Notes under the pieces: generated by a model
The model's database searches: none
What the model was told of the DNA's origin: nothing
The model's input: the letters and a program-made list of their open reading frames with translations, nothing else
Assembly (NCBI GenBank): GCA_020846935.1
Contig: JADLCY010000004.1
Coordinates: forward strand, 148,921 to 186,842
Reading direction: 5' to 3'
Length of the DNA stretch: 37,922 bases
From: Gemmatimonadaceae bacterium
GTDB taxonomy: Bacteria > Gemmatimonadota > Gemmatimonadetes > Gemmatimonadales > Gemmatimonadaceae
Position numbers and translations under genes: made by a program
Part shown: piece after piece, positions 21,426-37,790 of the stretch
Numbering within the stretch: the stretch's first letter is position 1
Layout of the letters: each line of letters begins with the position of its first letter

Positions 21426-22382
21426 CTACGCCGCTGAACGCTCCGAGATACCGATGCGCTTCTTCACCAGGTACACGGGGCGGCGCTTGGTCTCCTCGAA
21501 CAGCCGGCCGAGGTACTCACCAAGGATGCCGAGGCAAAACAGCTGGACGGCCGACGAAAACAGGAGCACGAGGATGAGCGAGGTCCACCCTCGTGCCTCA
21601 CGCGGGTTGTAGCCCAGGATCGGGAAGTTGCCGATGTACTGGGCGAGCACTACGAGACCTAGCGCCACCGCCACCGTGCCCACAAAGAATCCGAGCAGCA
21701 TGATCGCCTGCAGCGGTCGATAGCTGAAGTTCACGATGCCGTCGCCGGCGAGCTTGAACAGCTTGCGCAGCGTGTACTTGGGCTCCCCGGCGAATCGCGC
21801 CGCGCGTTCGTAGGCGAGGCCGGTCTGGCGGAACCCGACCCACGTGCGCAAGCCGCGCACGAAGCGATTGCGCTCCGGCAGGCCATTGATTGCGTCGACC
21901 ACTTCGCCGCGCATCACGCAGAAGTCGCCCGAGTCCAGCGGAATGTCGAGCGTGGCAAGTCGCTTGAGCAGGCGATAGTAGGTGTGGTACGCGATGCGCT
22001 TGAACAGTCCTTCCTTGCGCTTCGTGCGGATCGCGTAGACCACGTCGTGGCCCTCGCGGATCTTCTCGATGAACGGGAGCAGCTCCTCGGGTGGATCCTG
22101 CAGGTCGGCGTCCATCACGCAGACGATGCTGCCGCCGGCGTGCTGCAGGCCCGCGGTGACCGCGGCCTGGTGACCGAAGTTGCGACTCAGCGAGACGACC
22201 TTCACGCGCGGGTCCTTGTCCGCGAGCCGTTCGAGAATCTCCAGCGTGCGGTCGCGGCTTCCGTCGTCGATGATGACGAGTTCCCACGCCTCGCCCCAGC
22301 TGGTCGACGCGGCGGACACGCGGCGATACAGCTCCTCGAGACCGTCTTCTTCGTTGTAGGCAGGAACGACGAGCGAGATCAT
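21426..22382 (-). CDS. GT2 glycosyltransferase with C-terminal membrane helices (GtrB/DPM1-like)
   Basis: Transfers a sugar from a nucleotide donor to polyprenyl phosphate, or a related reaction at the cytoplasmic face of the membrane. The 318-aa product begins MISLVVPAYNEEDGLEELYRR, with IIDDGSRDRTLEIL (38-50), SLSRNFGHQAAVTAG, and the metal/nucleotide DAD at 91-93 in VMDADLQDPPEELL. The acceptor region SGDFCVMRGEVVDAINGLPERNRFVRG is conserved in this family. Two hydrophobic segments at roughly 233-260 and 270-295 anchor it. A long same-frame extension upstream of ATG 22382 is Arg/Pro-rich and not protein-like. It converges with nhaA across 200 bp that holds no gene. Confidence 0.93.
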   Translation of the reverse strand: MISLVVPAYNEEDGLEELYRRVSAASTSWGEAWELVIIDDGSRDRTLEILERLADKDPRVKVVSLSRNFGHQAAVTAGLQHAGGSIVCVMDADLQDPPEELLPFIEKIREGHDVVYAIRTKRKEGLFKRIAYHTYYRLLKRLATLDIPLDSGDFCVMRGEVVDAINGLPERNRFVRGLRTWVGFRQTGLAYERAARFAGEPKYTLRKLFKLAGDGIVNFSYRPLQAIMLLGFFVGTVAVALGLVVLAQYIGNFPILGYNPREARGWTSLILVLLFSSAVQLFCLGILGEYLGRLFEETKRRPVYLVKKRIGISERSAA

Positions 22383-22743
22383 GTCACGACGGACGAGTGG
22401 ACGGCGGGACCGGATTCGGCGCGAGGCAGGTCGACCGGGCGTCGAGCGATGCACGTGTCGCAGCCTGCGCACGGTGCCAGGGTAGTATGCTCGCGCCCGG
22501 TGCCCGACAACAGGACGATGCACGCGTGCGCTCGTTCCAGCGGACCCGTGGACGTGGTGGGCACGCCAGGCGTCCAGGCGCCCGAACCCAGCGGGGCTGG
22601 ATATGCGCGGGCGAACCCAAACGCACGAACTGGATACAACCCGAGGCGGAATGGTGACGCTGCTCCACGGTGGGCAGCGCAACATTGGACATGGTCGGGC
22701 CTCCTCCACCCACTTGCGGATCCAGTCCCGCCGAGCCGAGTCT
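22383..22743. other. Divergent intergenic region between glycosyltransferase and Uma2 genes
   Basis: 361 bp. Apart from the candidate minus-strand promoter I see no gene or repeat. The plus-strand frame runs open through the Uma2 gene back to about 22603, but the added part does not resemble the family. Confidence 0.4.
22482..22510 (-). promoter_or_regulatory. Candidate promoter for the glycosyltransferase gene
   Basis: On the minus strand TTGTCG (revcomp 22505-22510), 17 bp, then TACTAC (revcomp 22482-22487), followed about 100 nt later by ATG 22382. Sequence match only. Confidence 0.35.
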
Positions 22744-23319
22744 ATGGGCATGCCAGCGCACGATCTCGGGTTCCACACGGTCGACGACGTCCTCGCCATC
22801 CCGAGCGACGGTCAGAGGTATGAACTCGTGTACGGCAGGCTGCTGGTGAGTCCCGCGCCCACCTTGCAGCACGAGCGCATTGTCAGGAAACTCGCGATGG
22901 CGCTTCACGTTTTCTGTGATCGTCACGGGCTCGGCGAGGCGTTCGGCGTGATCGCCGATCTCACGTGGGGCCGACGCGACGTCCTGGTACAGCCTGACAT
23001 CTTTGTGATGGGCGCCGCGGATCGGCATGCGCGCGGGTGGGAGGAGGTGCGACACGTCCCTCTCGTCGCGGAGATCCTGAGTCCAGCGACTCGCACGTAC
23101 GATCGATTCGACAAGCGCCGCGTCTACCAGGATCGCAACGTTGCCCTGTACTGGGTGATCGATCCGCGCAGCCGCACAGCGGAAATCTGGACGCCCGAGG
23201 CAGAGGCGCCTGTGGTCGAGCGCGAGCGCCTCGTTTGGGCGCCCGCGGGAGTGGGCGAGGTGTTCTCGATGGAGCTGAACGAGCTCTTCGTGTCGATCGA
23301 GAGTCAATTGGGCTTGTAG
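22744..23319 (+). CDS. Uma2-family (DUF820) PD-(D/E)xK endonuclease-like protein
   Basis: A 191-aa member of the Uma2 family, a restriction-endonuclease-like fold of largely unknown role, multiplied in many bacteria. The start MGMPAHDLGFHTVDDVLAI is followed by QRYELVYGRLLVSPAP, then the catalytic-core pattern: VQPDIFVM (Asp), LVAEILSPATRTYDRFDKRRVYQ (Glu and Lys) and VALYWVIDPRSRTAEIW, all in the family order. So the PD-(D/E)xK core looks intact. Earlier in-frame starts add non-homologous residues. It faces the convergent amidohydrolase gene with a terminator hairpin between them. Isolated single copies like this are common; no partner gene is evident. Confidence 0.9.
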   Translation: MGMPAHDLGFHTVDDVLAIPSDGQRYELVYGRLLVSPAPTLQHERIVRKLAMALHVFCDRHGLGEAFGVIADLTWGRRDVLVQPDIFVMGAADRHARGWEEVRHVPLVAEILSPATRTYDRFDKRRVYQDRNVALYWVIDPRSRTAEIWTPEAEAPVVERERLVWAPAGVGEVFSMELNELFVSIESQLGL

Positions 23320-23324
23320 CGAAA

Positions 23325-23350
23325 CGGGCACCGACCTGCGCCGGTGCCCG
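23325..23350. terminator. Bidirectional terminator-like hairpin between convergent genes
   Basis: A perfect 9-bp GC-rich stem (23325-23333 with 23342-23350) around an 8-nt loop, in the 55 bp between the Uma2 gene and the convergent amidohydrolase gene. On the minus strand it is followed by TTTCG. It fits termination in both directions. Confidence 0.7.
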
Positions 23351-23374
23351 CCATTCATCCACAAGCAGCCGACG

Positions 23375-24772
23375 TTACGGCACGATCTTCGGCTGCTGCT
23401 GCTTGATCTTCTCCATGTACTTCTGGAAGAACCACTTGTGGATGTCCATCATGTTGATCTCGCGGCCCTGGATATAGGACTGAATGATGTCGCTCGTCAT
23501 GTCCAGCGGCGTGCCCGTGGTGATGAGCAGCGTTCCCTCCTTGCCCACCTCCAGCGATCCGACCTTGTCCGCGACGCCCATGAACTCCGCGGCGTTGATC
23601 GTCACCGCCTTGAGTGCCTCGTCCTCAGGAAGGCCGAACGCGACCGCCACGCCGGCTTCCCACGGCAGACGATTGCTGTACAGTCCACCCGAGCCACCGG
23701 AGATGGCGAACTTCACACCGGCGGCGTGCAGCTTGCCCGGCGTGGCGTACGCATTGTCGTAGCCCTCGTACTGCCGGTCCGGCGCCGCCATGGTGCTCGT
23801 GAGGATCACCGGCACGTTTTCGGCCTTTAGACGATCGGCGACGAACAGCGCGTCGCGCCCACCGCGGATCACCAGCTTCACCTGTTCCTGCTTTGCCCAC
23901 GTGATGGCGTCGTTGATCTGCGCGGCGCCATCGGCGGCCACCACGACGGGGATCGCCTTGTCCAGCGCGGGAATCATCGCCGCATAACGCGTGTCGGTGC
24001 GCACTGATTGGCCCGTCTTGATCGCATCGCGGTACGCGCGCGCCTCCGAGAACCAATCCTTGATCTGCTGCACCTGCTCGGCGTAGCTCTTTGGCGGCGG
24101 GCCTGCAGGCCGGCCGCCGGGACCACCGCCGCCAAAGCGCGCGCGGCCCGTGGAATTCGGATCGGGCCACCGCACGTTGAGCGCGGCCGCACCCTTCATC
24201 GACATCTCTTCCCACGTCCAGCCCTCGAGCGACATCGCGCTCGACAACCCGGAGATCACACCGCCCTCCGGCGTGCTGAACGCCACGAGCACGCCCGCCG
24301 ACCGCGTCGTGCCGATGTGACGGCTCTCCGCGTTCACGCCGATCTCGGCACGCACGTTGGGGTTGAAGTCACCGGTTTCCCGGATGTCGTTGGAGACGTC
24401 CACCGCGCCAATCTCGGTGATGCCCACCGTGCTGTACGCATCCACGAGACCGGGGTAGATGTGCTTGCCGCTCACATCGACCACCTTCGCCCCGCGTGGC
24501 GTCGCCACCTCCGGCCCACCGATCGCGGTGATCTTGCCGCGTTCGAGCACGATCGTGCCGTTCTGGATCGTGCCCCTGGTGACGGTGTGCAGGGTTGCGC
24601 CCTTGAGCACCACCGGCGTCGACTGCGGGGGCACGGTCATGCGCACCTGTGCGCGCGACGAACCGGGGAGCAGGAGTCCGGCACCCGCCATCGCCAGGCC
24701 CAGGGTGGCGCGTCGCGCCGTTCCGATCATGGTTCGCATCGTCTGGATAGCTGAAGGAAGGGTGCAGGTCAT
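23375..24772 (-). CDS. Secreted amidohydrolase-fold protein lacking the N-terminal metal His pair
   Basis: A 465-aa exported protein of the amidohydrolase superfamily (imidazolonepropionase-like group). The N-terminal segment with RRATLGLAMAGAGLLLPGSSRAQ is a Tat/Sec-type signal. The beta-sandwich opening VVLKGATLHTVTRGTIQNGTIVLERGKI and the strand following it are family-typical. At the place where active members read PGLIDxHxH, this one has YPGLVDAYSTVG, so both metal His are gone. The C-terminal GGLYSNRLPWEAGVAVAFGL and KVGSLEVGKEGTLLITTG blocks are kept. It may be catalytically altered or a non-enzyme. The start overlaps the stop of the upstream fusion gene as ATGA (24769-24772), indicating translational coupling; ATG 24739 is an alternative. 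Confidence 0.85.
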   Translation of the reverse strand: MTCTLPSAIQTMRTMIGTARRATLGLAMAGAGLLLPGSSRAQVRMTVPPQSTPVVLKGATLHTVTRGTIQNGTIVLERGKITAIGGPEVATPRGAKVVDVSGKHIYPGLVDAYSTVGITEIGAVDVSNDIRETGDFNPNVRAEIGVNAESRHIGTTRSAGVLVAFSTPEGGVISGLSSAMSLEGWTWEEMSMKGAAALNVRWPDPNSTGRARFGGGGPGGRPAGPPPKSYAEQVQQIKDWFSEARAYRDAIKTGQSVRTDTRYAAMIPALDKAIPVVVAADGAAQINDAITWAKQEQVKLVIRGGRDALFVADRLKAENVPVILTSTMAAPDRQYEGYDNAYATPGKLHAAGVKFAISGGSGGLYSNRLPWEAGVAVAFGLPEDEALKAVTINAAEFMGVADKVGSLEVGKEGTLLITTGTPLDMTSDIIQSYIQGREINMMDIHKWFFQKYMEKIKQQQPKIVP

Positions 24773-27768
24773 TGACGTTCGCGGTTGCCGGGCCGACTCG
24801 GACGTGCGCCCGGCGCGACCGTCTGCTCGGCAGGGCTCGCGGCGATCACGGCCTGGATGAGCTGCGCGCGCTGCCGGGCGACGTCGGCGCGAAGCACCTT
24901 GTCTTCGTCGAGCGAGAAGTACTTGCGCCCTTCCACCCAGGTCTGCTCGGCCCTGGTGAACTGCGAGAGCGGGTTGCCGCTCCAGATGACGAAGTCGGCG
25001 TCTTTCCCGGCCTCGAGCGAGCCCACCCGATTGTCAATGGCGATGGCCTTTGCCGCGCCGAGCGTCACCGTCCCGAGGGCGTCGATGTCCTTCACTCCGG
25101 TGCGAAGCAGCTTGCCCGCCTCCCAGTTCATGCGCGTGGAGATCTCGGAGTTGTCGGAGTGGAGTGACGTGACCACTCCGGCTTCGAGGAGCAAACGCGC
25201 GTTGTACGTGGTGTTGTCGTAGGCTTCCATCTTGAACGCGCCCCAATCGCTCCACACCACGGCCGCCACGCCGGACTTCTTGAGTTCGGATGCGATCTTG
25301 TAGGCTTCGAGCCCGTGCTGCAGCGTCTGGATGCGGAAGCCGAACTCCTCGGCGAGCCTGACGAGCGCCAGAAACTCGTCCGCGCGGTATCCGTGGGACG
25401 ACACCAGCAGCTTCTGGTTGAGGATGTCGAGGATTGCCTCCATCCGCAGATCCTTGCGCGGCGGGATGCCGGTCTTCGTCTTCTCCCAGGCCTTCCACTC
25501 CTTCTCGTAGTCCCGCGCGGCGTTGAAGTGGTCGCGGATGATCTCCTGCACGCCCATGCGGGTGTTCGGGTAGCGCGCCGGGCTGCGCTTGGGGTTCTCG
25601 CCCAGCGCGAACTTCACGGTGCGCGGAGCGCCCTGGAGCTTGTACTCGTCAGGCAGGCTGCCCCAGCGGATCTTCACGTACACGTTCTCGCCACCGATCG
25701 GGTTGGCGGACCCGTGCTTGATCATCGTGGTCGTGAGGCCGCCGGCGAGCTGTCGGTAGAACCAGATGTTGTTGTGCGTGATCACGTCGCCCATCTGCAC
25801 TTCGGGGACGATCGCGAAGCCGGTCTCGTTGACGTCGCTCACGCCGGAATGCGTATGCGGATCGATGAGTCCCGGCGTGACATGTTTGCCGCGCGCGTCG
25901 ATCTCCACCGCGCCAGCAGGCGCCTGCAGCTGCGTGCCGACACGCACCACCTTTCCGGCCTGCACCAGCAGGTCGGCGTTTTCCAGCCGACCCTGCGGAC
26001 CCTGCGTCCACACCGTCGCATTGCGCACGATGACGGCGGCGGGCTGCACCGGCGGCGCCGAGCGTCCGAACTCCATCGAGGGGCGCAGGTTGGGGAGGTC
26101 GATGCGCGGAACCCTCGCCGCGACCACCCCGCGGGTGGGGCCCTGGAACCGCTCGGTCCGCGTGCCGCGGTACGTGGCGTCGGTGCCGTTAGGCAGCGAG
26201 AGCCAGCCAAAGAACGCCGAGTCCGTCACCGAGCCCGCGAGCAGCACGGTGCCATCGAGGCCAACCGACTCGCCCGGGAACGTCACTTCAAGCCGGCCCG
26301 TCTCGGCGATGATGCGCGCCGTAGCGAGGTTCGTCGGGCGCGAGCCCTCCATCTCGATCGTGCCGCGGATGCGATTGAGCGGGCCTTCGAGACGGAGTAC
26401 CGCGTTCTTGGCGACGCCCGGGTCGTTCGAGGCGATGGTCCACGTGCCGCGGGCATCGAGCTGAGGCGGACGCGTGACGCCGTACGCCTTGCCCTGCACC
26501 CACACGTCGCGCACGCTCGCTTCTTCCGTGAAGAGGTCGCCGTCGGCCACGACGAGGTTCGCCGCCTTGCCGGCCGCGATCGTGCCGTGCGTCTTCTCGA
26601 GGCCGAGCCAGCTGGCAGGCACCGTGGTGAGAGCGGCGAGCGCCTTGTCAGCCGGCAGGCCGCGCGCAACCGCTGTCCGCAGGTTGGGGAGGAACTGCTG
26701 CAGCGACGACAGGCCGTCGGCGGTGAGCGCAAACGGGATGTTGGCCGCCGCCAGCTGCCCCGGATTGGTCGGCGCGAGGTACCAGTGCCGCAGGTCGGCG
26801 AGGGCCACGTTTGCCGCCATCTCGGGGCTCGACACGTTGGGCGCATCGGGGAACGTCAGCGGCACGATAAGCGGCTGCGTGCGCCCCTTGAGCACGTCGA
26901 GCAGGCGATACTCCTGGCCGCTGCCGCGGAACCACGGCGTGAGTTTGTAATCCTGCGCGAGCTTGTACGCGCGCAGGTACTCCTCTTCGCTCGTGGTCTC
27001 GAAGTAGACCGGTTGCGCGCCGCTGATGGACTTTCCGAGCGCGGCAAGGGCCTCGCTCGTCTCGGGAGGCAACATCGCGCGCCCGCTGGCTTCGTAGGCG
27101 GCCCAGGCGCGCGTGTACCACTCGGCGTCCATGAACGTCTGCTTCATCAGGGCAATCGTGCCCATGGACGAGTTGGGGTACATGCCGCCGAGCGGGAAGG
27201 AGCGCTGAAAGCCAAGTGTCTGTGCGAGATCGGCGCGCAGGACGCGATCGCGGAGGCCGGCGTCGCCCAGGTTCACGACGGAGGCTGTCCCGCGGAAGAT
27301 CCCCTGGCGCGGCACGGCGAGCACGGTGCCGAACCCGAGGGACCGGAGCGCGATCCGTCGGGTGCTGTCGTCCCGCGCGTTGGACGTGGTGCTGAACCAC
27401 GCGCGTACCTGCGGGTTCCAGTGCGTCGGCCCGACGTCGCCCCCTTGAGGGGGCGCATCACCGCCGAGGTCCGCCGACGCGTCGAGGAAGCCGGGGTAGA
27501 CCGTGAGGCCCTTGAGATCCCAGACCCGGGCTCCGGCCGGGGCAGCTAAACCTGCGCCGACCGCCTGGATCAGCCCGTTGCGGATGACGACGGTGGCGTT
27601 GTTGAGCACCTGGCCAGGGGCGGTGACCACGCGGGCGCCAACGAGGGCGTGAAAGCCGGTGGAGTTGTCGCGCAGGCCGGTGACGGGCTCGGTTCGGGAG
27701 GACTGCTGGGCCTCGAGCGAACTGGCCGCGAGCGCGGCGACGCCGAGTAGGACACGAAACGCTCTCAC
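24769..27768 (-). CDS. Two-domain amidohydrolase fusion, secreted
   Basis: A 999-aa exported protein made of two amidohydrolase-fold units. Signal peptide: MRAFRVLLGVAALAASSLEA from GTG 27768, with GGGAG-type Shine-Dalgarno bases 7 nt upstream. The N-terminal unit (about 40-440) has VYPGFLDASADLGG where HxH is expected, so it is degenerate, though its later CAxN-type LGLEKTHGTIAAGKAANLVVADG block remains. A ~130-residue beta-rich linker follows. The C-terminal unit (about 580-960) has an intact VTPGLIDPHTHSGVSD metal pair, VSSHGYRADE, TLQHGLEAYK and LHSDNSEISTRMN, consistent with a working metal site. The substrate is unknown; peptides, cyclic amides or imides are usual. It is the first gene of an operon with the next amidohydrolase. 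Confidence 0.9.
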   Translation of the reverse strand: MRAFRVLLGVAALAASSLEAQQSSRTEPVTGLRDNSTGFHALVGARVVTAPGQVLNNATVVIRNGLIQAVGAGLAAPAGARVWDLKGLTVYPGFLDASADLGGDAPPQGGDVGPTHWNPQVRAWFSTTSNARDDSTRRIALRSLGFGTVLAVPRQGIFRGTASVVNLGDAGLRDRVLRADLAQTLGFQRSFPLGGMYPNSSMGTIALMKQTFMDAEWYTRAWAAYEASGRAMLPPETSEALAALGKSISGAQPVYFETTSEEEYLRAYKLAQDYKLTPWFRGSGQEYRLLDVLKGRTQPLIVPLTFPDAPNVSSPEMAANVALADLRHWYLAPTNPGQLAAANIPFALTADGLSSLQQFLPNLRTAVARGLPADKALAALTTVPASWLGLEKTHGTIAAGKAANLVVADGDLFTEEASVRDVWVQGKAYGVTRPPQLDARGTWTIASNDPGVAKNAVLRLEGPLNRIRGTIEMEGSRPTNLATARIIAETGRLEVTFPGESVGLDGTVLLAGSVTDSAFFGWLSLPNGTDATYRGTRTERFQGPTRGVVAARVPRIDLPNLRPSMEFGRSAPPVQPAAVIVRNATVWTQGPQGRLENADLLVQAGKVVRVGTQLQAPAGAVEIDARGKHVTPGLIDPHTHSGVSDVNETGFAIVPEVQMGDVITHNNIWFYRQLAGGLTTTMIKHGSANPIGGENVYVKIRWGSLPDEYKLQGAPRTVKFALGENPKRSPARYPNTRMGVQEIIRDHFNAARDYEKEWKAWEKTKTGIPPRKDLRMEAILDILNQKLLVSSHGYRADEFLALVRLAEEFGFRIQTLQHGLEAYKIASELKKSGVAAVVWSDWGAFKMEAYDNTTYNARLLLEAGVVTSLHSDNSEISTRMNWEAGKLLRTGVKDIDALGTVTLGAAKAIAIDNRVGSLEAGKDADFVIWSGNPLSQFTRAEQTWVEGRKYFSLDEDKVLRADVARQRAQLIQAVIAASPAEQTVAPGARPSRPGNRERQ

Positions 27769-28117
27769 GTCTGGCTCCCGTGGGACGGCCCGGAGAGGCC
27801 GTCGGTGGTGATGTGGGGGTAGTGTGCGCCGGCGGCGCGGAAGGAGAACGCGAGCCGGCCGCCATATGCTGCGCCCGAAACCCGCTGAGGGGGAGTCCCC
27901 CGAGGGCCTCTGCACTCGACGTCAGCGGGTGACCACCATCTGGCGGTGAGGCTCCTGAAACCGCCTTGGTGTCGGCCCGCGGTCACGGTCACCGTGATCG
28001 GGGAGGTGCCGGCCGCCAACCGCTTGGTGCGCGGTGGCGGCGGAATCGGAGAACGGGAGGTGCCGTGAGGGCCATTGGGAGGCGGGCAACCCTCCCAACC
28101 GAGTACGCGCGGCCTCC
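27769..28117. other. Gene-free region with a run of strong stem-loops
   Basis: 349 bp between the amidohydrolase fusion and a pseudogene. Visible helices: 27880-27888 with 27922-27930 (9 bp) enclosing GGGGG/CCCCC at 27889-27893/27897-27901; 27942-27947 with 27960-27965; a perfect 7-1-7 palindrome TCACGGT-C-ACCGTGA at 27983-27997; and 28012-28023 with 28031-28041 (11 bp, one bulge). No frame resembles a protein. As leader of the minus-strand operon it could be regulatory, or it could be a noncoding RNA or repetitive element. Confidence 0.45.
28075..28098 (-). terminator. Hairpin after the decayed nucleotidyltransferase gene
   Basis: An 8-bp stem (28075-28082 with 28091-28098) and 8-nt loop, 20 bp after the pseudogene stop at 28118. 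No clear U-run follows, so it may act as a barrier rather than a full terminator. Confidence 0.4.
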
Positions 28118-29035: not shown

Positions 29036-29071
29036 TTGACATGAATTGATTACAGTAATACTGTATCCATA
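29036..29071 (+). promoter_or_regulatory. Leaderless promoter and operator of the TetR/esterase operon
   Basis: A perfect -35 box TTGACA (29036-29041), 17 bp, then TACTGT (29059-29064) as -10. The expected transcription start falls at or next to ATG 29071, so the mRNA would be leaderless. Overlapping the -10 is a perfect 7-1-7 palindrome TACAGTA-A-TACTGTA (29051-29065), just the size bound by TetR dimers, indicating autorepression. Confidence 0.75.
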
Positions 29072-29733
29072 TGAATGCACGGCGCCCGCGGAAGAAGCGA
29101 TCCTACACCTCCGCCCTGCGCACCGGTCAAGCGCTCGAGACGCGGCAGCGAGTGCTCGATGCTGCCATGCGCCTCTTCATTGAACGCGGCTTCGCGGCCA
29201 CCACCATCACGTTGGTGGCTGCCGCTGCCAGCGTGTCGCCTGAAACGATCTATGCCACCTGCGATGGGAAGCGCGGCCTCCTCGAAGGTGTGGTCGACAC
29301 CGCCATCGCGGGTGGTGTCGAAGCACCACTAGAACTGCAGCCCGTATGGGGGGCGATCAGGCAACATCGTTCGGCGCGGGAGCGGCTGCGCGCGTATGTC
29401 GCACTCACCTGCAGGGTGCTCGCTCGCACGAGTGCGATCCACCACGTGATCCGCGGGGCAGCGGATAGCGAGGTGTTCGCCGCCGATCTCAGCGCCCGTC
29501 TCCTGCGTGAGCGGCTCGCGTCCAACACAACTCACCTTCGCGACTACATCGGGGACGAGCTGAGAGTCGGACTCACGTGGCGTGAAGCTGCGGAGCGTTA
29601 CTGCGCCATCAGCAGCCCCGAGGTTCATCACCTGCTCACGACCGGGCTTGGATGGAGCCGGCGCGCGCATGAGGCGTGGCTGTGGGGCTTGGCCGAACAG
29701 GATCTCATCGGGCCACGGTCCGATGACGCATGA
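29071..29733 (+). CDS. TetR/AcrR-family transcriptional repressor
   Basis: A 220-aa DNA-binding regulator. The N-terminal TetR helix-turn-helix is clear: ETRQRVLDAAMRLFIERGFAATTITLVAAAASVSPETIYATCDGKRGLLEGVVD (about 24-78), with the usual GFAATT and A.VS..T.Y segments. The recognition helix SPETIYATCDGK departs from the common Y-x-x-F-x-x-K: Phe is Cys-Asp here. The C-terminal helical domain (about 100-215) should bind the inducer. The adjacent palindrome overlapping its promoter strongly suggests self-repression, and a serine hydrolase gene starts 10 bp downstream with its own strong ribosome site. The probable circuit is release of repression by the hydrolase's substrate or product. Confidence 0.92.
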   Translation: MNARRPRKKRSYTSALRTGQALETRQRVLDAAMRLFIERGFAATTITLVAAAASVSPETIYATCDGKRGLLEGVVDTAIAGGVEAPLELQPVWGAIRQHRSARERLRAYVALTCRVLARTSAIHHVIRGAADSEVFAADLSARLLRERLASNTTHLRDYIGDELRVGLTWREAAERYCAISSPEVHHLLTTGLGWSRRAHEAWLWGLAEQDLIGPRSDDA

Positions 29734-31553: not shown

Positions 31554-32144
31554 CTACCTGCCTTGCGCCGATCCCGAGTTCACCTGGTCGTGGATCCGCG
31601 CCAGCTCCACGGCGGCATCGAGGAGTGCCACAAACCGCTCCGGCGGCGGCGCCCAGAGTGGCTCGACCGTGTCCTCGAGGAACAGGTATCCCGAGAACGA
31701 CTCGAAGTGCACCGAGTGGCATTGAATGCACCTGAGCCGCTCGACGACGCCGGCCGCGTGCAGCCGCTCCTCGAGCGCGTGATCGTCACTCTTCACGCCA
31801 AGACCACGCTCACCCTGCCGCGCATCGCCCGTCGTCATCCAGCTCGTGCGACCAGCGACGTTCGCTACTCCGACGCCGAATCGGTTTTCGTGATGCTGCC
31901 ACTCCCATGAACGCACATGGGGGCTCATGCGGGCATGAATCGTCCGGCCCTTCCAGCTCCCCGCGAGGTAGCTGCTCGCGCCACCGCCCTGTGGATCCTC
32001 GTGCACCACACCGTCGATGATGCCGACGAGTGGCTGCCACGCGCGCACGAAGCGCCGGTGCTTGAACCGGTTCACGAGGAGCCCCACGCGCCACGCGAGG
32101 ACGACGAACGCCACGACACCGAGCACCACGACCACGGTCTCCAT
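31554..32144 (-). CDS. Membrane-anchored hypothetical protein, last gene of the envelope operon
   Basis: A 196-aa protein with one N-terminal transmembrane helix (METVVVVLGVVAFVVLAWRVGLLV) and a soluble domain of about 170 residues. Its ATG (32144) overlaps the OmpA-gene stop by one base (TGATG), indicating coupled translation. The soluble part has a pattern (SWKGRTIHARMSPH, KSDDHALEERLHAAGVVERL, then EDTVEPLWAPPPERFVALLDAAVELARIHDQVNS) that I associate with uncharacterised proteins in envelope contexts. A CIQCH sequence sits in the middle; the surrounding residues are not cytochrome-like, so haem binding is doubtful. It works presumably with the OmpA, coiled-coil and CsgG-like products encoded just upstream. 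Confidence 0.8.
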   Translation of the reverse strand: METVVVVLGVVAFVVLAWRVGLLVNRFKHRRFVRAWQPLVGIIDGVVHEDPQGGGASSYLAGSWKGRTIHARMSPHVRSWEWQHHENRFGVGVANVAGRTSWMTTGDARQGERGLGVKSDDHALEERLHAAGVVERLRCIQCHSVHFESFSGYLFLEDTVEPLWAPPPERFVALLDAAVELARIHDQVNSGSAQGR

Positions 32145-33340
32145 CACTGCCTCCGGAGTTCGACGCGCCGGTTGAACGCGCGCCCTTCAGGCGTCGCGTT
32201 GGTCTCCACGGGCCGAGATGCGCCGGCCCCGCGAGCCGTCAGGCGCGAACGCGCGACACCGGAGCGCTCGACGAGTGCATCCGCCACCGCTTCGGCGCGC
32301 TGGAGCGACAGCGTCTCGTTGAACGCGCGCCCTCCCACCGAATCGGTGTGCCCCTCGATCGACAACTGCCACTCAGGGTGCGCCGCCAGCACGCCCCCGA
32401 TCTCGGCGAGCACCGAGTCCGATTCGGTCCGGATGGCGGCGCTGTTGTAGTCGAAATAGATGCCGTACACGGTCACCTCCTCGCCCGCCTCGAGCTTCCG
32501 CTCGAGTGTCTTTCGTTGCGGCCACGAGATGCGCGTGAACCAGATGCGGGACTTCGTAGAGGAGCGCTCGTTGTCGAGCACGAGCGGCACGCGCTCGTCG
32601 TCGAGAATCACGAGGCGCTGGCGCTGGACCGGACGCGAGCCAGAAGCGTCGCGCAGCAGCACCTCCGCCTGGATCACCGGGACCTGCACGGCCGAGTCAT
32701 TGAGCTGCAGCCGCAGGCGGTCCATCCGGATGCGCCTGAGCGTGCCCGATACGTCTTCATCGATGTAGACGGTCGCGTCGGGGTCGGGCGCTTCGGCGCC
32801 ATCCTGCCATACCGATGCCTGCAGGTGCAGCTGACGGAATGGCGTTTCGCCGCGCTCCTTGAGTTCGCGGAACGCCGTGCGCGAGAGCATGCTCCAGGTC
32901 GTGCCATCCACGAGGTCGGGAATGCGAGGACCGAACTGCGTCCGATACCCATGCGCGTTCCGCAAGTCCGCGCGACACACGACCGTGCGGGCACGATGCG
33001 CCTTCTTTGGAGGTCGTTCGGAGCAACGGCTGCGAAAGACGACGCTGACCGAGTCCACGGCGCTCAGCTCGGCCACGCAGTCGTGATCGAAGTCGTTCAG
33101 GCCACTGTCCGGACCCACCCACGCCCAGGCCACCGTGAGTCCGGCAACGAGGGGCACCGTCGCCTTGCCCTGCTCAGCCGCCTCTTCGCGTCCGCCAGGC
33201 ACGGGTGCGCAGGGTCGGCCCGTGACGAGCTCGGAAGGCCCGGCCGAGTCCTGCTCCTCGCCGGAACTGGAGCACCCGGCAACGAGCGCGCACAAAAGCC
33301 CGAGACGAATGACGGCGTGGCGTGGGGGCCTGGTCAACAT
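32144..33340 (-). CDS. OmpA-family lipoprotein
   Basis: A 398-aa envelope protein. ATG 33340 gives MLTRPPRHAVIRLGLLCALVAGCSSS, a clear lipobox with Cys23, so lipid-anchored in the outer membrane most likely. A middle region (about 60-270) is unlike known domains and has strand-rich segments with several Cys (DHDCVAEL, RSRCSERP, TVVCRADL). The C-terminal OmpA domain (about 285-398) has VYGIYFDYNSAAIRTESDSVLAEI, LSIEGHTDSVGGRAFNETLSLQRAEAV and GRAFNRRVEL, the peptidoglycan-binding signature. It therefore tethers the outer membrane to the cell wall. Its start overlaps the stop of the upstream coiled-coil gene by 7 bp, and its stop overlaps the next start: one operon. Confidence 0.92.
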   Translation of the reverse strand: MLTRPPRHAVIRLGLLCALVAGCSSSGEEQDSAGPSELVTGRPCAPVPGGREEAAEQGKATVPLVAGLTVAWAWVGPDSGLNDFDHDCVAELSAVDSVSVVFRSRCSERPPKKAHRARTVVCRADLRNAHGYRTQFGPRIPDLVDGTTWSMLSRTAFRELKERGETPFRQLHLQASVWQDGAEAPDPDATVYIDEDVSGTLRRIRMDRLRLQLNDSAVQVPVIQAEVLLRDASGSRPVQRQRLVILDDERVPLVLDNERSSTKSRIWFTRISWPQRKTLERKLEAGEEVTVYGIYFDYNSAAIRTESDSVLAEIGGVLAAHPEWQLSIEGHTDSVGGRAFNETLSLQRAEAVADALVERSGVARSRLTARGAGASRPVETNATPEGRAFNRRVELRRQ

Positions 33341-34146
33341 GCGCCTTGCAGCAGGCTTGCGGGGCCCAGTGTGCCAGGACGCCCCCGCGGTCCGACCTTG
33401 ACGATACCGACCTGGCAACCCTTACTCTGTTGTGCGCCAGCGAACATCGTGGGGTCGCCAGAGGGATCGGCCAGGACCAGGGCGCCGTAGCCCTGGACAC
33501 CCGAGCGCAGTCTCGCGCTTGGGGTGTCGCCCTTGAAGAGCGCCAGCGTTGCCCCATGGTCGGCACTGCTCGCCATGAGGATGGCCGAATGCGACTCGCT
33601 GGTCGCGCGGAACTGCCCAAAGTTGTCGGACGCGATGATGAAGGCGCGGTCGGTATTGGTCGCGTCGCGCACGCGAACGACCCCGCCACCCGCCGACCCG
33701 GTCCCCAGTTCCACCTGACCGCCCTTGTCGTCGCCGACCACGAGCCGGGGTGACTTGCCACCGGTGACGCGCATGATCACGCTGCCATCCGCATCCTCGA
33801 CCACGAACGGCGCGCGGACCCGGCCACCTGCCGGCGCAGAACCACCACCGCGATTGCCCGAAGGTGAGCGCTCCAGCGAGCCGACCCGCCGCTCGAGGCT
33901 GGCGAGCTTCTCCTCCTGCTCGGCCTTCTCGGCTTCCTCCGACAGATCCTGGTCGTCCTGCTCGGCGTCTCGCTCCATTTTCAGCAGTCGCGCTTCGAGA
34001 CTCTTGACGGTGGAATCGGACTTCCTGAGTGCGGCGTCGAGCCGCGTGATCTGGTTCTGCAGGGACTGCAGCGTCTGAGCGCGAACGGCGTTAGGCGCCA
34101 GGGCGAGGATGAAGGACAGTGGGACGAGGGCGAGGAGGCGTGGCAT
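33334..34146 (-). CDS. Secreted coiled-coil protein with repeat-rich (tail-fibre-like) C-terminal region
   Basis: A 270-aa exported protein. Signal peptide MPRLLALVPLSFILALAPNAVRA. Residues about 24-95 form a heptad coiled coil (TLQSLQNQITRLDAALRKSD, then LERRVGSLERS), predicting a dimer or trimer. After a Gly/Ser linker, the C-terminal part (about 110-250) repeats short beta turns: APFVVEDADGSVIMRVTGG, LVVGDDKGGQVELGTGSAGGG, and later ALVLADPSGDPTMFAG. This layout (coiled coil, then beta-turn repeats) recalls trimeric fibre or adhesin shafts, but the C-terminal Cys residue and exact fold are not established. It overlaps the OmpA-gene start by 7 bp and sits 19 bp after the CsgG-like gene. Surface or periplasmic fibre is inference. 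Confidence 0.8.
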   Translation of the reverse strand: MPRLLALVPLSFILALAPNAVRAQTLQSLQNQITRLDAALRKSDSTVKSLEARLLKMERDAEQDDQDLSEEAEKAEQEEKLASLERRVGSLERSPSGNRGGGSAPAGGRVRAPFVVEDADGSVIMRVTGGKSPRLVVGDDKGGQVELGTGSAGGGVVRVRDATNTDRAFIIASDNFGQFRATSESHSAILMASSADHGATLALFKGDTPSARLRSGVQGYGALVLADPSGDPTMFAGAQQSKGCQVGIVKVGPRGRPGTLGPASLLQGAC

Positions 34147-34165
34147 GTGAGTGTGAGTATGGGGT

Positions 34166-34867
34166 TCATCGGGTGGTCGCAGCGTGCTGTGCCGTGACTT
34201 CGGCGATGTTCTTTGTCATCTCGCGCGAGGCTTCGACGAATGCCTGGCCCATCGGCGAGGCGAGGAACGCCGCGTGATCGCCCACGTCCCACGAGCCCCA
34301 CGCCGACCACACACGGCCAGCATACGCATTGTCGCGGTGGCCACGCTTCACGGTTGTCGTCAGCAACCGCTGACCCGAGCTCACGTCGAGGAGCACGCCC
34401 TGGATCGACGTCTTCGCCTCGATCGACCGGATCGTCACGTGGATCGAGCTGCTCTTGATCTTGGGGAGCCAGCCGCCGCGGGAGGACTCGCGGCTCGTGG
34501 CCTCGAGGACGGTTCCGACAAACACGTAGTCCAGGCCGTGTCGCCGCGCGGCGTCGAGCGCCGCCGCGTCATCGACGGGCTTGCGCTCGGCCAGGTCATT
34601 GACCGCAACACCGACCAGTTCCGTCGCTTTCGCTACTTCATCGATGAGGGTCTGGGCGGCCGAGATGCCTGCCGCGCGCGCGGAGCCTCCGGTGCCGTCG
34701 ACAAAGGGAAGCACGCCGAGGCGTGGTCCCGGGCGCGACGTGGCGGCACCAGCCTGGGCCATTCCTCCAGAAGGGGAGGCGAGCAGAATCCCGAGAAACA
34801 GGACGACGGTACGCCGTCCCGATCCTTGACAGTGTGTGGCTGCGGTGGGCTTTGTTGAGGGCGACAT
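34166..34867 (-). CDS. Exported CsgG/LpoB-fold protein, first gene of the envelope operon
   Basis: A 233-aa protein with a signal peptide (TVVLFLGILLASPSGGMAQA, residues about 20-39). The core opens RLGVLPFVDGTGGSARAAGI, then LIDEVAKATELVGVAVNDLAERK, AARRHGLDYVFVGTVLEA and IRSIEAKTSIQGVLLDVSSGQRLLTTTVKRG. This order of strand (LGVLPF), helix and a YVFVGTV strand is the CsgG/LpoB/TolB-N-like fold. Members activate peptidoglycan synthases or, in CsgG, form export pores; there is no lipobox here, so a soluble periplasmic activator is likelier. ATG 34867 is the start; the in-frame extension upstream crosses the divergent promoter and the regulator gene. It leads a four-gene operon. Confidence 0.82.
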   Translation of the reverse strand: MSPSTKPTAATHCQGSGRRTVVLFLGILLASPSGGMAQAGAATSRPGPRLGVLPFVDGTGGSARAAGISAAQTLIDEVAKATELVGVAVNDLAERKPVDDAAALDAARRHGLDYVFVGTVLEATSRESSRGGWLPKIKSSSIHVTIRSIEAKTSIQGVLLDVSSGQRLLTTTVKRGHRDNAYAGRVWSAWGSWDVGDHAAFLASPMGQAFVEASREMTKNIAEVTAQHAATTR

Positions 34868-34909
34868 CCCTACGGCTCCCTGATGGGCGACGCGCGCAGG
34901 ATGGCGGTG

Positions 34910-34955
34910 CGGTGTTACGTCACCGTGCGGTTCGCCGTTACTTCGCGCGGTAACG
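34910..34955. promoter_or_regulatory. GTTAC-type dyads in the divergent promoter region
   Basis: Two dyads: CGGTG/CACCG (34910-34914 with 34921-34925) and CGTTAC/GTAACG (34936-34941 with 34950-34955). GTTAC occurs in direct orientation at 34914 and 34937 (23-bp step) and inverted at 34950. SARP/BTAD proteins often bind direct repeats about 22 bp apart, so these are candidate sites for the regulator encoded next door. They lie in the 124 bp between the regulator and the CsgG-like operon. Confidence 0.5.
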
Positions 34956-34991
34956 CCTCTCCGAGCCAGCGTTCGCACCCGTTTTCCAAGA

Positions 34992-37790
34992 ATGAGCCGA
35001 CTCCTGACGCTTGGCCGCTTCGAGTTGCGCACGTCGGAACCCATGGGGGCAGGGAGCGCCATCGCGATGCAGCCCAAGCGGTTGGCGCTTCTGGCGTACC
35101 TGATGCTGGCGTCGGCGCGCGGCGCCGTTCGGAGGGACTCGCTGGTGGCGCTCTTCTGGCCTGACGCCACCGCGGACGAGGCGCGCAACGCGCTGCGACA
35201 GGCCCTCCACCACCTGCGGCAGCAGCTCGGCGACAAGGCGCTCGAGACTCGACCGGACGATCAGGTCGTATTCTCCGGAGGGCCGCTGGCCTGCGACGCA
35301 CTGGACCTGGAGCGCGCGGTGGCGTCAGGCGATGACGTGCAGGCGCTGGCGCTTTACCAGGGGCCCTTTCTGGAGGGGGTCTTTGTTCGCGGGGTGTCGC
35401 AGGAGTTCGAGGAGTGGGTCGAGCGTACCCGGCTCCGCTTGCGATCGGCCGCCGCGGACGCGGCCCGGAGGCTCGCCGAGGAGGAGGCCGCCTCGGGCAA
35501 CATGGAGTCGGCGATCGCGGCCGCCCGTCGCCGCTGCGAGATCGAACCCGAACACGAAGGTGCGGTCCGGTCGCTCCTCACGCTGCTCGACGACCACGGC
35601 AACTGCAGCGAGGCGCTGCAGCAAGCCGCGCGCTTCGAAGAACTCCTGCGAGCCCGCTACGAAGTCGAGCCTTCCGCCGAGACAACGGCGTTGGTCGCTG
35701 CGATACGCAGCGGATCACGGGCACCCAGGCCGAGGACCTCCGTGCCCGCGGTTGCCGCGCCGTCCTCGGTCATGCGACCGGGACCGCCGATCTCGCGCGA
35801 GCTCCGGTGGCGCAACGTCGCCATCACCGTGGGATTGCTGGCGATCATCAGTGTGGCGCTCATGCAGTGGCGCCAGCGCGGAGCGCTCGCGGCGTCGCCC
35901 ACGTTCGCACCGACCGATCGTCTCTTCGTGACGGACTTTGTCGATCGCACGCCGGCGTCGAGGCTCGGCGCACTCGTTGCCAGCGCCATGCGCGTCGATC
36001 TCGGGCAGCTGGCAGGCGTGCGCGTGCTGACCACGGCGCAGGTGCACGCGGCCGTGCGACTGATGGATCGACCCATCGAGGTCACGATCGACGACACGCT
36101 TGCGCGGCTCATCGCCGTGCGCGAGGGGGTGAAGGCCTTCGTGACCGGCGAGGTGCACTCGGTGGGTTCGGCGATCGTCCTCGAGGCGCGCCTCGTCGCG
36201 TCGCCCAGTGGCGACGAGTTGGCGTCGGCACGTGAGGAAGCGCGCGACAGTGCCGACGTCCTGCCGGCCATCGCTCGATTGTCGGAGGCGTTGCGCGGTC
36301 GCATGGCGAGGTCGCTGCCGCACACCCCCGCTGCCGCGCCACTCACGCGCGTGACGACGTCGTCGCTGGCCGCCCTGGAGCGATACACGGAGGGCACGCG
36401 ACTGCTCGACGTTGGCCGTCGCGCGGAAGGCGTCGCGCAGCTCGAGCAGGCGGTGGCGATCGACACCGGCTTTGCCACGGCGTGGCGCATACTCGGCTCC
36501 ACCTACGGGGTGCTTGGCGAACCCGCGAAGGCGGCCGCAGCCCTCGGTCGGGCGTTCCAGAACCGGGAGCGACTCCCCTTTCGTGAGCGGCATCTGCTGA
36601 TGGGGAGCTACTATCGCAATGCCACACCGCACCTCGACAGCGCGGTTGCTGCCTATCGCGCGCTGCTCGCGCTGTATCCGGACGACATTGCCGCGACGAA
36701 CAACCTCGGGCTCACCTTGACGTCGCTGGGCCAGCATGCAGCTGCCGACAGTTTGTATCGGCGCGTGATTGCCGCGGATTCCACCTTCGTGAACGTCCGA
36801 CTCGTGCTCGCGGAGGGGTTGGCGGCGCAGGGGAAGTTCGCCGATGCGCGCGTGGTGCTGGATGATGCAGGCCGCCGCTTCCCCGACCACCCCGTCGTGG
36901 GGCTCACCCGCATCTACGTGGCAGCGGCGGCGAGCGAGTGGAAGCAGGCGGAGGCCCTGGCTCAGCAGCGGCTCGCAACGGTGACAGCCACGGTGCAGCG
37001 CATCGACGCGCTGCAGACGCTTGGCCAGATCGAACTGGTGCGGGGCAAGCTTGACGCGGCGCAGCGTCACCTCGAGGAATCGATGCGACTCGCGCGGGGC
37101 GCGGGTTCGCCGCGAAAGCACCTGTGGAGCGTGGTCGTGCTGGGATGGCTCGATCTGCGCTACCGCGAGCGGCCAGATGACGCGCGCCGGCGCCTGGAAC
37201 GCGCCATCGAGGCCTGGCCTGCGGACGTCATGCGGCAAGGCGACGTTCCCACGCCAGACCTCCTGCGCCTGGCGAGTGCGCTCGGCGAGACTGGTCGCGT
37301 GCGGTCGCGTCTTCCGGCCACCGAGGGCGGTGCGGCGAACCCGGGCCCCGAGCAGCGGCAGGTCGACGGGCTCGTAGCGTTAGGCAGGGGCAGGGCGCGT
37401 GAAGCGGTGACGGCGTTCAGCGCGGCCGCGGCCGCGCGCCCGGATTGCCCCATCTGCCTCCTCCCGGACCTGGCGATGGCGCAGGAACTGGCCGGCGATA
37501 CCACGGCGGCCGTGGCCTCGCTCGACCGATACCTTCGCACGCCATTCATTCATCGGTTCGAGCTCGACGCCGTGCACTTGCCATCCGTGTGCACCCGGCT
37601 TGCGAACCTGTTGGAAGGCCGCGGTGATCGCGCCGGTGCGACCGCGGTGCTCCGGCAGTTGCTCGCCACCTGGGCGGAAGCGGATGCCGGGCTCGCGCCG
37701 CGCGCAACCGCGATCCGAGCGCGGGTTGCGCAGCTGGAAGGCCCCCAACGACGATCGCGACCTCAGGACACCCCGCGCGTCGCGCGATAG
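34992..37790 (+). CDS. BTAD (SARP-like) regulator with transmembrane helix and TPR sensor domain
   Basis: A 932-aa one-component regulator. N-terminal about 1-100 is a winged-helix DNA-binding domain of the SARP type (LLTLGRFELR, RLALLAYLMLA, RRDSLVALFWPDATADEARNALRQALHHLRQQLG). Next is a bacterial transcriptional activator (BTAD) helical domain (about 110-240: FEEWVERTRLRLRSAAADAARRLA ... RFEELLRARYEVEPSAETTALVAAI). A transmembrane helix at 274-292 (NVAITVGLLAIISVALMQW) follows. Outside the membrane is a beta-alpha domain LFVTDFVDRTPASRLGALVA (TolB-N-like), then TPR repeats (about 450-900). This ToxR-like layout senses an envelope signal and acts on DNA directly. It diverges from the CsgG-like/OmpA operon, the obvious target. 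It contains one CGTTAGGC octamer with a TTA codon at 37378-37385. Confidence 0.92.
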   Translation: MSRLLTLGRFELRTSEPMGAGSAIAMQPKRLALLAYLMLASARGAVRRDSLVALFWPDATADEARNALRQALHHLRQQLGDKALETRPDDQVVFSGGPLACDALDLERAVASGDDVQALALYQGPFLEGVFVRGVSQEFEEWVERTRLRLRSAAADAARRLAEEEAASGNMESAIAAARRRCEIEPEHEGAVRSLLTLLDDHGNCSEALQQAARFEELLRARYEVEPSAETTALVAAIRSGSRAPRPRTSVPAVAAPSSVMRPGPPISRELRWRNVAITVGLLAIISVALMQWRQRGALAASPTFAPTDRLFVTDFVDRTPASRLGALVASAMRVDLGQLAGVRVLTTAQVHAAVRLMDRPIEVTIDDTLARLIAVREGVKAFVTGEVHSVGSAIVLEARLVASPSGDELASAREEARDSADVLPAIARLSEALRGRMARSLPHTPAAAPLTRVTTSSLAALERYTEGTRLLDVGRRAEGVAQLEQAVAIDTGFATAWRILGSTYGVLGEPAKAAAALGRAFQNRERLPFRERHLLMGSYYRNATPHLDSAVAAYRALLALYPDDIAATNNLGLTLTSLGQHAAADSLYRRVIAADSTFVNVRLVLAEGLAAQGKFADARVVLDDAGRRFPDHPVVGLTRIYVAAAASEWKQAEALAQQRLATVTATVQRIDALQTLGQIELVRGKLDAAQRHLEESMRLARGAGSPRKHLWSVVVLGWLDLRYRERPDDARRRLERAIEAWPADVMRQGDVPTPDLLRLASALGETGRVRSRLPATEGGAANPGPEQRQVDGLVALGRGRAREAVTAFSAAAAARPDCPICLLPDLAMAQELAGDTTAAVASLDRYLRTPFIHRFELDAVHLPSVCTRLANLLEGRGDRAGATAVLRQLLATWAEADAGLAPRATAIRARVAQLEGPQRRSRPQDTPRVAR

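Follow-up and report, generated by a model that had tools for sequence, protein, structure and literature searches.

Streptomyces antibiotic regulatory proteins (SARPs) are activators of actinomycete antibiotic clusters. CadC and ToxR represent another layout, in which a cytoplasmic winged helix-turn-helix (wHTH) domain, a single transmembrane (TM) segment and a C-terminal periplasmic sensor are combined in one protein, with a divergent or adjacent target operon. Here, we focus on a locus of a Gemmatimonadaceae bacterium that recalls the former in its promoter geometry and the latter in its predicted protein layout. The stretch of DNA analyzed, hereafter the window, comprises 37,922 nucleotides and is the end of contig JADLCY010000004.1 (positions 148921-186842 of 186842; the genome measures 4.5 Mb in 15 contigs). 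Four minus-strand genes, named g1 to g4, are separated therein by a 124-bp divergent gap from a plus-strand gene encoding a 932-aa regulator. Our reading, to which we assign a probability of about 0.75, is that this protein is a membrane-inserted SARP-type activator that runs the cell-envelope module g1-g4.

In the mechanism proposed, the cytoplasmic wHTH-BTAD part would bind GTAAC half-sites in the divergent gap, namely a palindrome and a direct repeat 23 bp nearer g1, and the bound regulator would recruit RNA polymerase to a weak -10 hexamer, CATCCT, placed 8 bp further, turning on g1-g4. The TolB/FlgO-like and tetratricopeptide repeat (TPR) part behind the TM segment would sense an envelope signal in the periplasm. 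The exported products would be an OmpA lipoprotein (g3), a coiled-coil/beta protein (g2), a CsgG-type periplasmic protein (g1) and a small membrane protein (g4); our best guess is that they maintain the envelope or remodel the surface, with the secreted products feeding back. The features concerned are the following, in window coordinates:

31554-32144, minus strand: g4, 196 aa, predicted TM anchor at the N-terminus (aa 4-22), not assigned to any family (open reading frame, Pfam and hydrophobicity)
32144-33340, minus strand: g3 ('OMPAL', the hallmark gene of the module), predicted 398-aa lipoprotein with a new N-domain and a C-terminal OmpA domain
33334-34146, minus strand: g2, 270 aa, predicted signal peptide, coiled coil (aa 20-92) and beta-meander (aa 114-267)
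34166-34867, minus strand: g1, 233 aa, putative exported protein that weakly matches the CsgG/FlgT/TolB-N type
34898-34903, minus strand: CATCCT, the predicted -10 hexamer in the promoter of g1-g4, with 8 bp between it and the last half-site
34912-34918, minus strand: GTAACAC, direct-repeat half-site on the promoter-proximal side, at 23 bp from the palindrome arm
34936-34955, no strand: predicted operator palindrome CGTTAC-N8-GTAACG, sole exact copy in the genome
34992-37790, plus strand: regulator, 932 aa, with wHTH and BTAD, one TM segment, TolB/FlgO-like segment and TPRs
35055-35708, plus strand: wHTH (aa 22-82) and BTAD (aa 117-239) of the regulator (Pfam)
35814-35870, plus strand: single TM segment of the regulator, aa 275-293 (hydrophobic segment)
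35913-36311, plus strand: putative TolB/FlgO-like segment of the regulator, aa ~308-440 (weak match of the g1 profile and sequence pattern)
36369-37720, plus strand: TPR repeats of the regulator, aa ~460-910 (Pfam)

The spacing is 19 bp between g1 and g2, followed by a 7-bp overlap of g2 and g3 and a 1-bp overlap of g3 and g4, where the ATG lies within TGATG. The first-pass annotation of this DNA had the gene coordinates, the spacing, the divergent layout and the single operon right to the base, except that it put the start of g1 at 34868, one off from 34867. As every one of the five genes has homologues, g2, g3 and g4 included, the genes are real; in G004, a genome of the same genus, the g1 relative shows 47% identity and the regulator relative 66% over the first 92 aa.

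Operator and promoter geometry

Aligning the divergent gaps of the window and of G004 revealed an island of identity at CGTTAC..GTAACG amid diverged DNA. A search for CGTTACN{4,12}GTAACG in 24 genomes returned 24 exact places; a reversed control pattern had about equal overall frequency, and therefore it is the position of the sites, not their number, that is informative. Besides its single exact copy, the window's genome has one further place at the same spacing with one mismatch. Of the 24 exact sites, 16 immediately precede either a module operon or a regulator gene belonging to one clade, even when regulator and operon are on separate contigs. Eleven of them are found 30-110 bp upstream of a BTAD start codon, where 0.012 would be expected (P ~1e-30), and 7 of 20 when the four discovery loci are left out (P ~1e-18), both P-values being too small as the sites are partly kin by descent. 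Five further copies sit right in front of module operons (G035:C125, G178:C184 and three on G044:C81), and those three genomes each have a BTAD gene with its own palindrome copy on another contig. Among the eight remaining exact copies, the four read in L131-L134 are intragenic, and so are most of the unlinked copies inspected. Moreover, all 14 regulators associated with a site, exact or with one mismatch, belong to one well-supported clade (98/94), the only other row of which is a paralogue fragment covering 20% of the columns, of unsure placement.

Read toward the operon, the element consists of CGTTAC-N6..9-GTAACG, followed in most of 19 sites, at a distance of 22-24 bp (23 bp at the window site), by a second GTAAC half-site. 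The 19 sites were aligned on this second half-site, picked blind to what lies downstream, and NANNNT was counted at every offset. The hexamer was present 15 bases from the start of the half-site (the 7-base repeat plus 8 bp) in 17/19 sites, and in 0 to 3 at other offsets; the window reads GTAACAC-CGCACCGC-CATCCT (34918-34898). In published SARP promoters, direct repeats are 11 or 22 bp apart and the 3' repeat is 8 bp from the -10 (PMC10936776; PMC7040171). The g1-g4 promoter looks like a SARP promoter, and since the fixed 8-bp spacing between half-site and -10 matches the published rule, the regulator is best read as a membrane-inserted SARP activating an envelope regulon. In addition, a scan for sigma-70 consensus promoters found none in the region, as expected of an activator-dependent promoter. 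The sequences themselves show the layout of the operon, its linkage, the operator, the fixed distance to the -10, the co-occurrence of clade and operator, the OmpA domain and the export signals; we infer from them that the regulator binds the site, activates the g1-g4 promoter and senses in the periplasm.

The core element is an inverted repeat, centred in 11 genomes 30-110 bp before the start codon of the regulator gene itself, which would suit a classical dimer operator through which the regulator represses the operon, or only itself. Nevertheless, we consider repression clearly unlikely: the element is also found in front of operons that have their regulator on a different contig, the operon-proximal half-site keeps its 8-bp distance to the -10-like hexamer in nearly all sites, which is the geometry of activating SARPs (PMC10936776), and no -10-like hexamer is present in the window 8 bp past the right arm toward the regulator.

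Two side observations touch on these operators. The first or second gene of operons behind them encodes a putative lipoprotein family of ~150-200 aa (L096_1, L096:2573-3112; L099_2, L099:3725-4243; L100_2, L100:3725-4171; L120_2, L120:3008-3502; L122_4, L122:4535-5131); L120_2 and L122_4, the two scanned against Pfam, have no match there. A sister BTAD lineage (L041:5985-6155, G047:C5; L030:6195-6440, G047:C8) shows GTGAC repeats at spacings of 11 and 23 bp, with 8 bp between the final repeat and CATCTT, which amounts to a second operator type with the same rule; the L030 regulator is cut to 121 aa and looks degraded.

The regulator and its module in Gemmatimonadales

Pfam assigns BTAD to the regulator at 53.4 bits (cut-off 22.1) and Trans_reg_C at 25.6 bits, just below the cut-off of 26.2, together with many matches to TPR families. 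One hydrophobic segment was found in it, and a TM segment is located behind BTAD in every regulator tested, one relative having a second, marginal one. Among 19 Pfam families, NB-ARC/NOD gave no match in the regulator, and the TM segment occupies that place; on the features examined, the protein belongs to the SARP/BTAD group and is not of the AfsR type. The TPR part would then be periplasmic. In several regulators, the segment that follows the TM is a weak match to the g1 profile, which suggests that g1 and the sensor part share a TolB/FlgO-like fold; if they do, secreted g1 could, as a guess, feed back on the sensor. A scan of the contig collection with the regulator as query gave no match.

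As for the operon genes, single-sequence searches of 99 relatives yielded almost no match for g1, g2 and g4, while full-length relatives of g3 did appear; the near-orphan status implied by these searches was overturned by an alignment-based one. With an alignment of the g3 N-domain (A1), 34 loci were retrieved in 23 of the 288 genomes of the order, and in a phylum sample of 395 genomes the matches were nearly all confined to Gemmatimonadales. In 10 of the 34 loci, the g3-family gene has a BTAD domain at most 10 kb away, as compared to 0.73 expected (P ~1e-9, from PF03704 positions in 24 genomes; the sizes of two contigs were assumed, with small effect). Strong matches to g2 number five in the 288 genomes, all within g3-family loci, and the three strong matches to g1 all adjoin BTAD-type regulators, two of them also with DUF3558. 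Parts that recur in these neighbourhoods are the BTAD-TPR regulator, a tandem DUF3558 lipoprotein (PF12079), CsgG-like exported proteins, a 614-aa protein and g2-like proteins. For instance, in G004 the regulator is divergent from DUF3558 followed by g1, and g3 opens another contig; G071 has CsgG-like, g2, g3 and DUF3558 in this order, as in the window; and in L033 a distant g4 homologue adjoins a DUF3558-like gene. Gene calls in the other genomes were made by a simple script using the window's codon use, and contigs of metagenome-assembled genomes are short, so that missing linkage is often missing sequence.

Overall, to judge from these neighbourhoods, the window locus belongs to a real but mosaic module of Gemmatimonadales. 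The first-pass annotation had proposed to look for a conserved neighbourhood in other genomes, with scattered homologues or a missing BTAD link speaking against it. The outcome did not refute it, as the link to BTAD is conserved; the exact four-gene block is not. Its one-component membrane regulator very probably controls the adjacent operon, as indicated by conserved linkage, operator and -10. That generic envelope genes merely stand by chance beside one of many BTAD paralogues would agree with the 8 BTAD domains in the window's genome, the loose gene order and the few homologues from single-sequence searches; yet the statistics of BTAD linkage, the exclusive occurrence of strong g2 matches in g3-family loci and the unique operator in the gap contradict it, making chance scarcely credible.

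Several observations weigh against our reading. The four genes are not kept as a block across genomes, and since the g3 family is limited to 23 of 288 genomes, the function of the module is accessory. The spacing of the palindrome arms varies by lineage from 6 to 9 bp, 2/19 sites lack a -10 at the fixed place, and the palindromic third half-site is outside the standard SARP rule. The periplasmic placement of the TPR part depends on a single hydrophobic segment, and the kinship of the sites was mentioned above. Moreover, five module copies (L086/L097, L038, L039, L036 and L076) have a Ser/Thr kinase near or divergent, not BTAD; the kinase replaces the regulator at L036:3295-6542, L097:4601-8271, L076:4184-6883 and L039:7793-10699, and in two of these copies (L036 and L097) a gene resembling extracytoplasmic function (ECF) sigma factors is beside it.

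Such copies, adjoining kinases and ECF sigma factors, would also fit an operator that belongs to another factor, e.g., one tied to kinase/ECF pairs, controlling both the BTAD gene and the module. Indeed, the kinase-linked copy on G044:C81 (L039) has a palindrome; however, contig C51 of G044 also encodes a BTAD regulator that belongs to the right clade and has a palindrome of its own, and the kinase-linked L036, L076 and L097 are without an intergenic palindrome. As the sites track one BTAD clade, and as it is for SARPs that the literature found describes 8 bp between repeat and -10, we regard control by another factor as quite improbable, even more so than repression, and retain activation by the membrane-inserted regulator.

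As a separate observation, a family of large exported proteins (~575-614 aa) is repeatedly found in other module copies with DUF3558 on one side and the g3 family on the other (L031:8041-9885, L032:1579-3423, L040:4476-6314 and L041:7694-9421), with at most sub-threshold Ig/filamin-like matches. In the literature, no paper on this module was found.

Products of the operon

The lipoprotein g3 has two domains:

32486-33148, minus strand: N-domain, aa ~65-285, predicted to be antiparallel and beta-rich (model and Pfam scan)
32168-32458, minus strand: OmpA-like peptidoglycan-binding domain, aa 295-391, with the NETLSLQRAEAVADAL motif (Pfam, fold match)

It starts with a signal-peptide-like N-terminus and a lipobox (LVAGC, Cys23), matches PF00691 at 78 bits (E 7.7e-22), and contains GHTDS and N-x2-LS-x2-RA-x2-V-x3-L, the Asp/Arg binding motif of OmpA domains. 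It is likely that g3 is tethered to peptidoglycan through its OmpA domain, and the peptidoglycan linkage put forward earlier gains support from this conserved motif. In the AlphaFold model (7 sequences, mean pLDDT 71), the OmpA domain is confident and the N-domain is beta-rich with two helices; fold searches returned OmpA domains only (Foldseek E 3e-9 to OprF). No Pfam match to the N-domain was obtained among 9 family members scanned, and its profile gave nothing meaningful against PDB sequences; on these comparisons, it is an undescribed domain of ~220 residues.

Family searches gave nothing above cut-off for g1, g2 and g4. CsgG (PF03783) did not match g1 itself, and in its relative L028 (G004) it reached 17.3 bits, below the cut-off of 20.8, with FlgT_M also below cut-off. 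The assignment of g1 to CsgG/LpoB in the first-pass annotation stands as a sub-threshold match, best in a relative, and not as a match above cut-off; 'CsgG-like' is plausible but weak. When g1 was compared to the ~205-aa CsgG-like family of other module copies (A6), the hhalign probability was 0.5-1.2%, by which homology is not shown, with position and pattern in agreement. The profiles of g1, g2 and this other family against PDB sequences gave nothing meaningful. Separately, the ~205-aa domain is found in Acidobacteriota (L101-L119, mostly), for the most part as the C-terminal part of 375-603-aa exported proteins, often near or divergent from Ser/Thr kinase genes.

Regarding g2, its N-terminus is signal-peptide-like, and the AlphaFold monomer model (only 4 sequences, pLDDT 67, pTM 0.40) predicts a 70-residue helix and a single-layer beta-meander, its matches being confined to generic proteins with a single beta layer, e.g., OspA (TM 0.38). 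The earlier description as 'tail-fibre-like' is not supported: no significant match was found in PHROGs, and the best viral fold hit (E 2.7e-3) is not a named fibre. It could still be that the operon forms a peptidoglycan-anchored surface fibre or secretion device, in which g2 would be a trimeric fibre and g1 a CsgG-like pore, an idea compatible with the regulatory reading. The coiled coil of g2 followed by a repetitive beta region, the longer relatives with more repeats (L100_6, 458 aa) and the CsgG score of the g1 relative are in its favour. Against it, g1 has no lipobox and is absent from most module copies, the operon genes match no curli family and include no curli subunit or usher, and g2 has no significant structural match to fibres. 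We find this rather unlikely, and the 'fibre or export apparatus' suggested before is not supported.

Elsewhere in the window, three minus-strand open reading frames at 21426-27915 (457, 465 and 1048 aa) have sizes like those of a tripartite resistance-nodulation-division efflux operon, and a TetR-like one is nearby at 29071-29733.

Comparison with known systems

If our reading is right, a SARP DNA-reading head and promoter geometry would occur in a different phylum, joined across the membrane to TPRs and placed before envelope genes. With an operator predicted at base resolution, the regulon can be put to the test, and there is a route to the targets of BTAD regulators, which are abundant in Gemmatimonadota. 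Moreover, the g3 N-domain, g2 and the tandem DUF3558 lipoproteins would be assigned to one regulated envelope unit. More tentatively, and in our estimate less likely than not, a SARP lineage of Gemmatimonadales may have become membrane-inserted, periplasm-sensing one-component regulators that kept the SARP rule and drive a dedicated envelope apparatus, made of the peptidoglycan-tethered g3-type lipoprotein with its new domain, the coiled-coil/beta protein, the CsgG-like protein and DUF3558 lipoproteins.

Among the products, g3 resembles OmpA/Pal/YiaD-type lipoproteins in its C-terminal OmpA domain, and differs from them in the ~220-residue N-domain without Pfam match. With the CsgG/FlgT/TolB-N superfamily, g1 shares the sub-threshold CsgG and FlgT_M matches of L028 and the weak match of its profile to the regulator segment behind the TM; unlike CsgG, it lacks a lipobox and neighbouring curli genes, and it is a putative member. 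The regulator is like CadC and ToxR in layout, as predicted from one hydrophobic segment, but has BTAD, a SARP-type promoter geometry and a TolB/FlgO-like and TPR sensor. With the Streptomyces SARPs (AfsR, ActII-ORF4 and DnrI), it has in common an N-terminal OmpR-type wHTH followed by BTAD, and a place adjoining its targets. It differs from them in being membrane-anchored (as predicted), with TPRs behind the TM and no NOD ATPase, in having envelope targets and not an antibiotic cluster, in the extra inverted half-site, and in its Gemmatimonadota host. The window operator itself is like SARP promoters, with direct repeats about two helical turns apart and the last one 8 bp upstream of a weak -10 (PMC10936776, PMC7040171).

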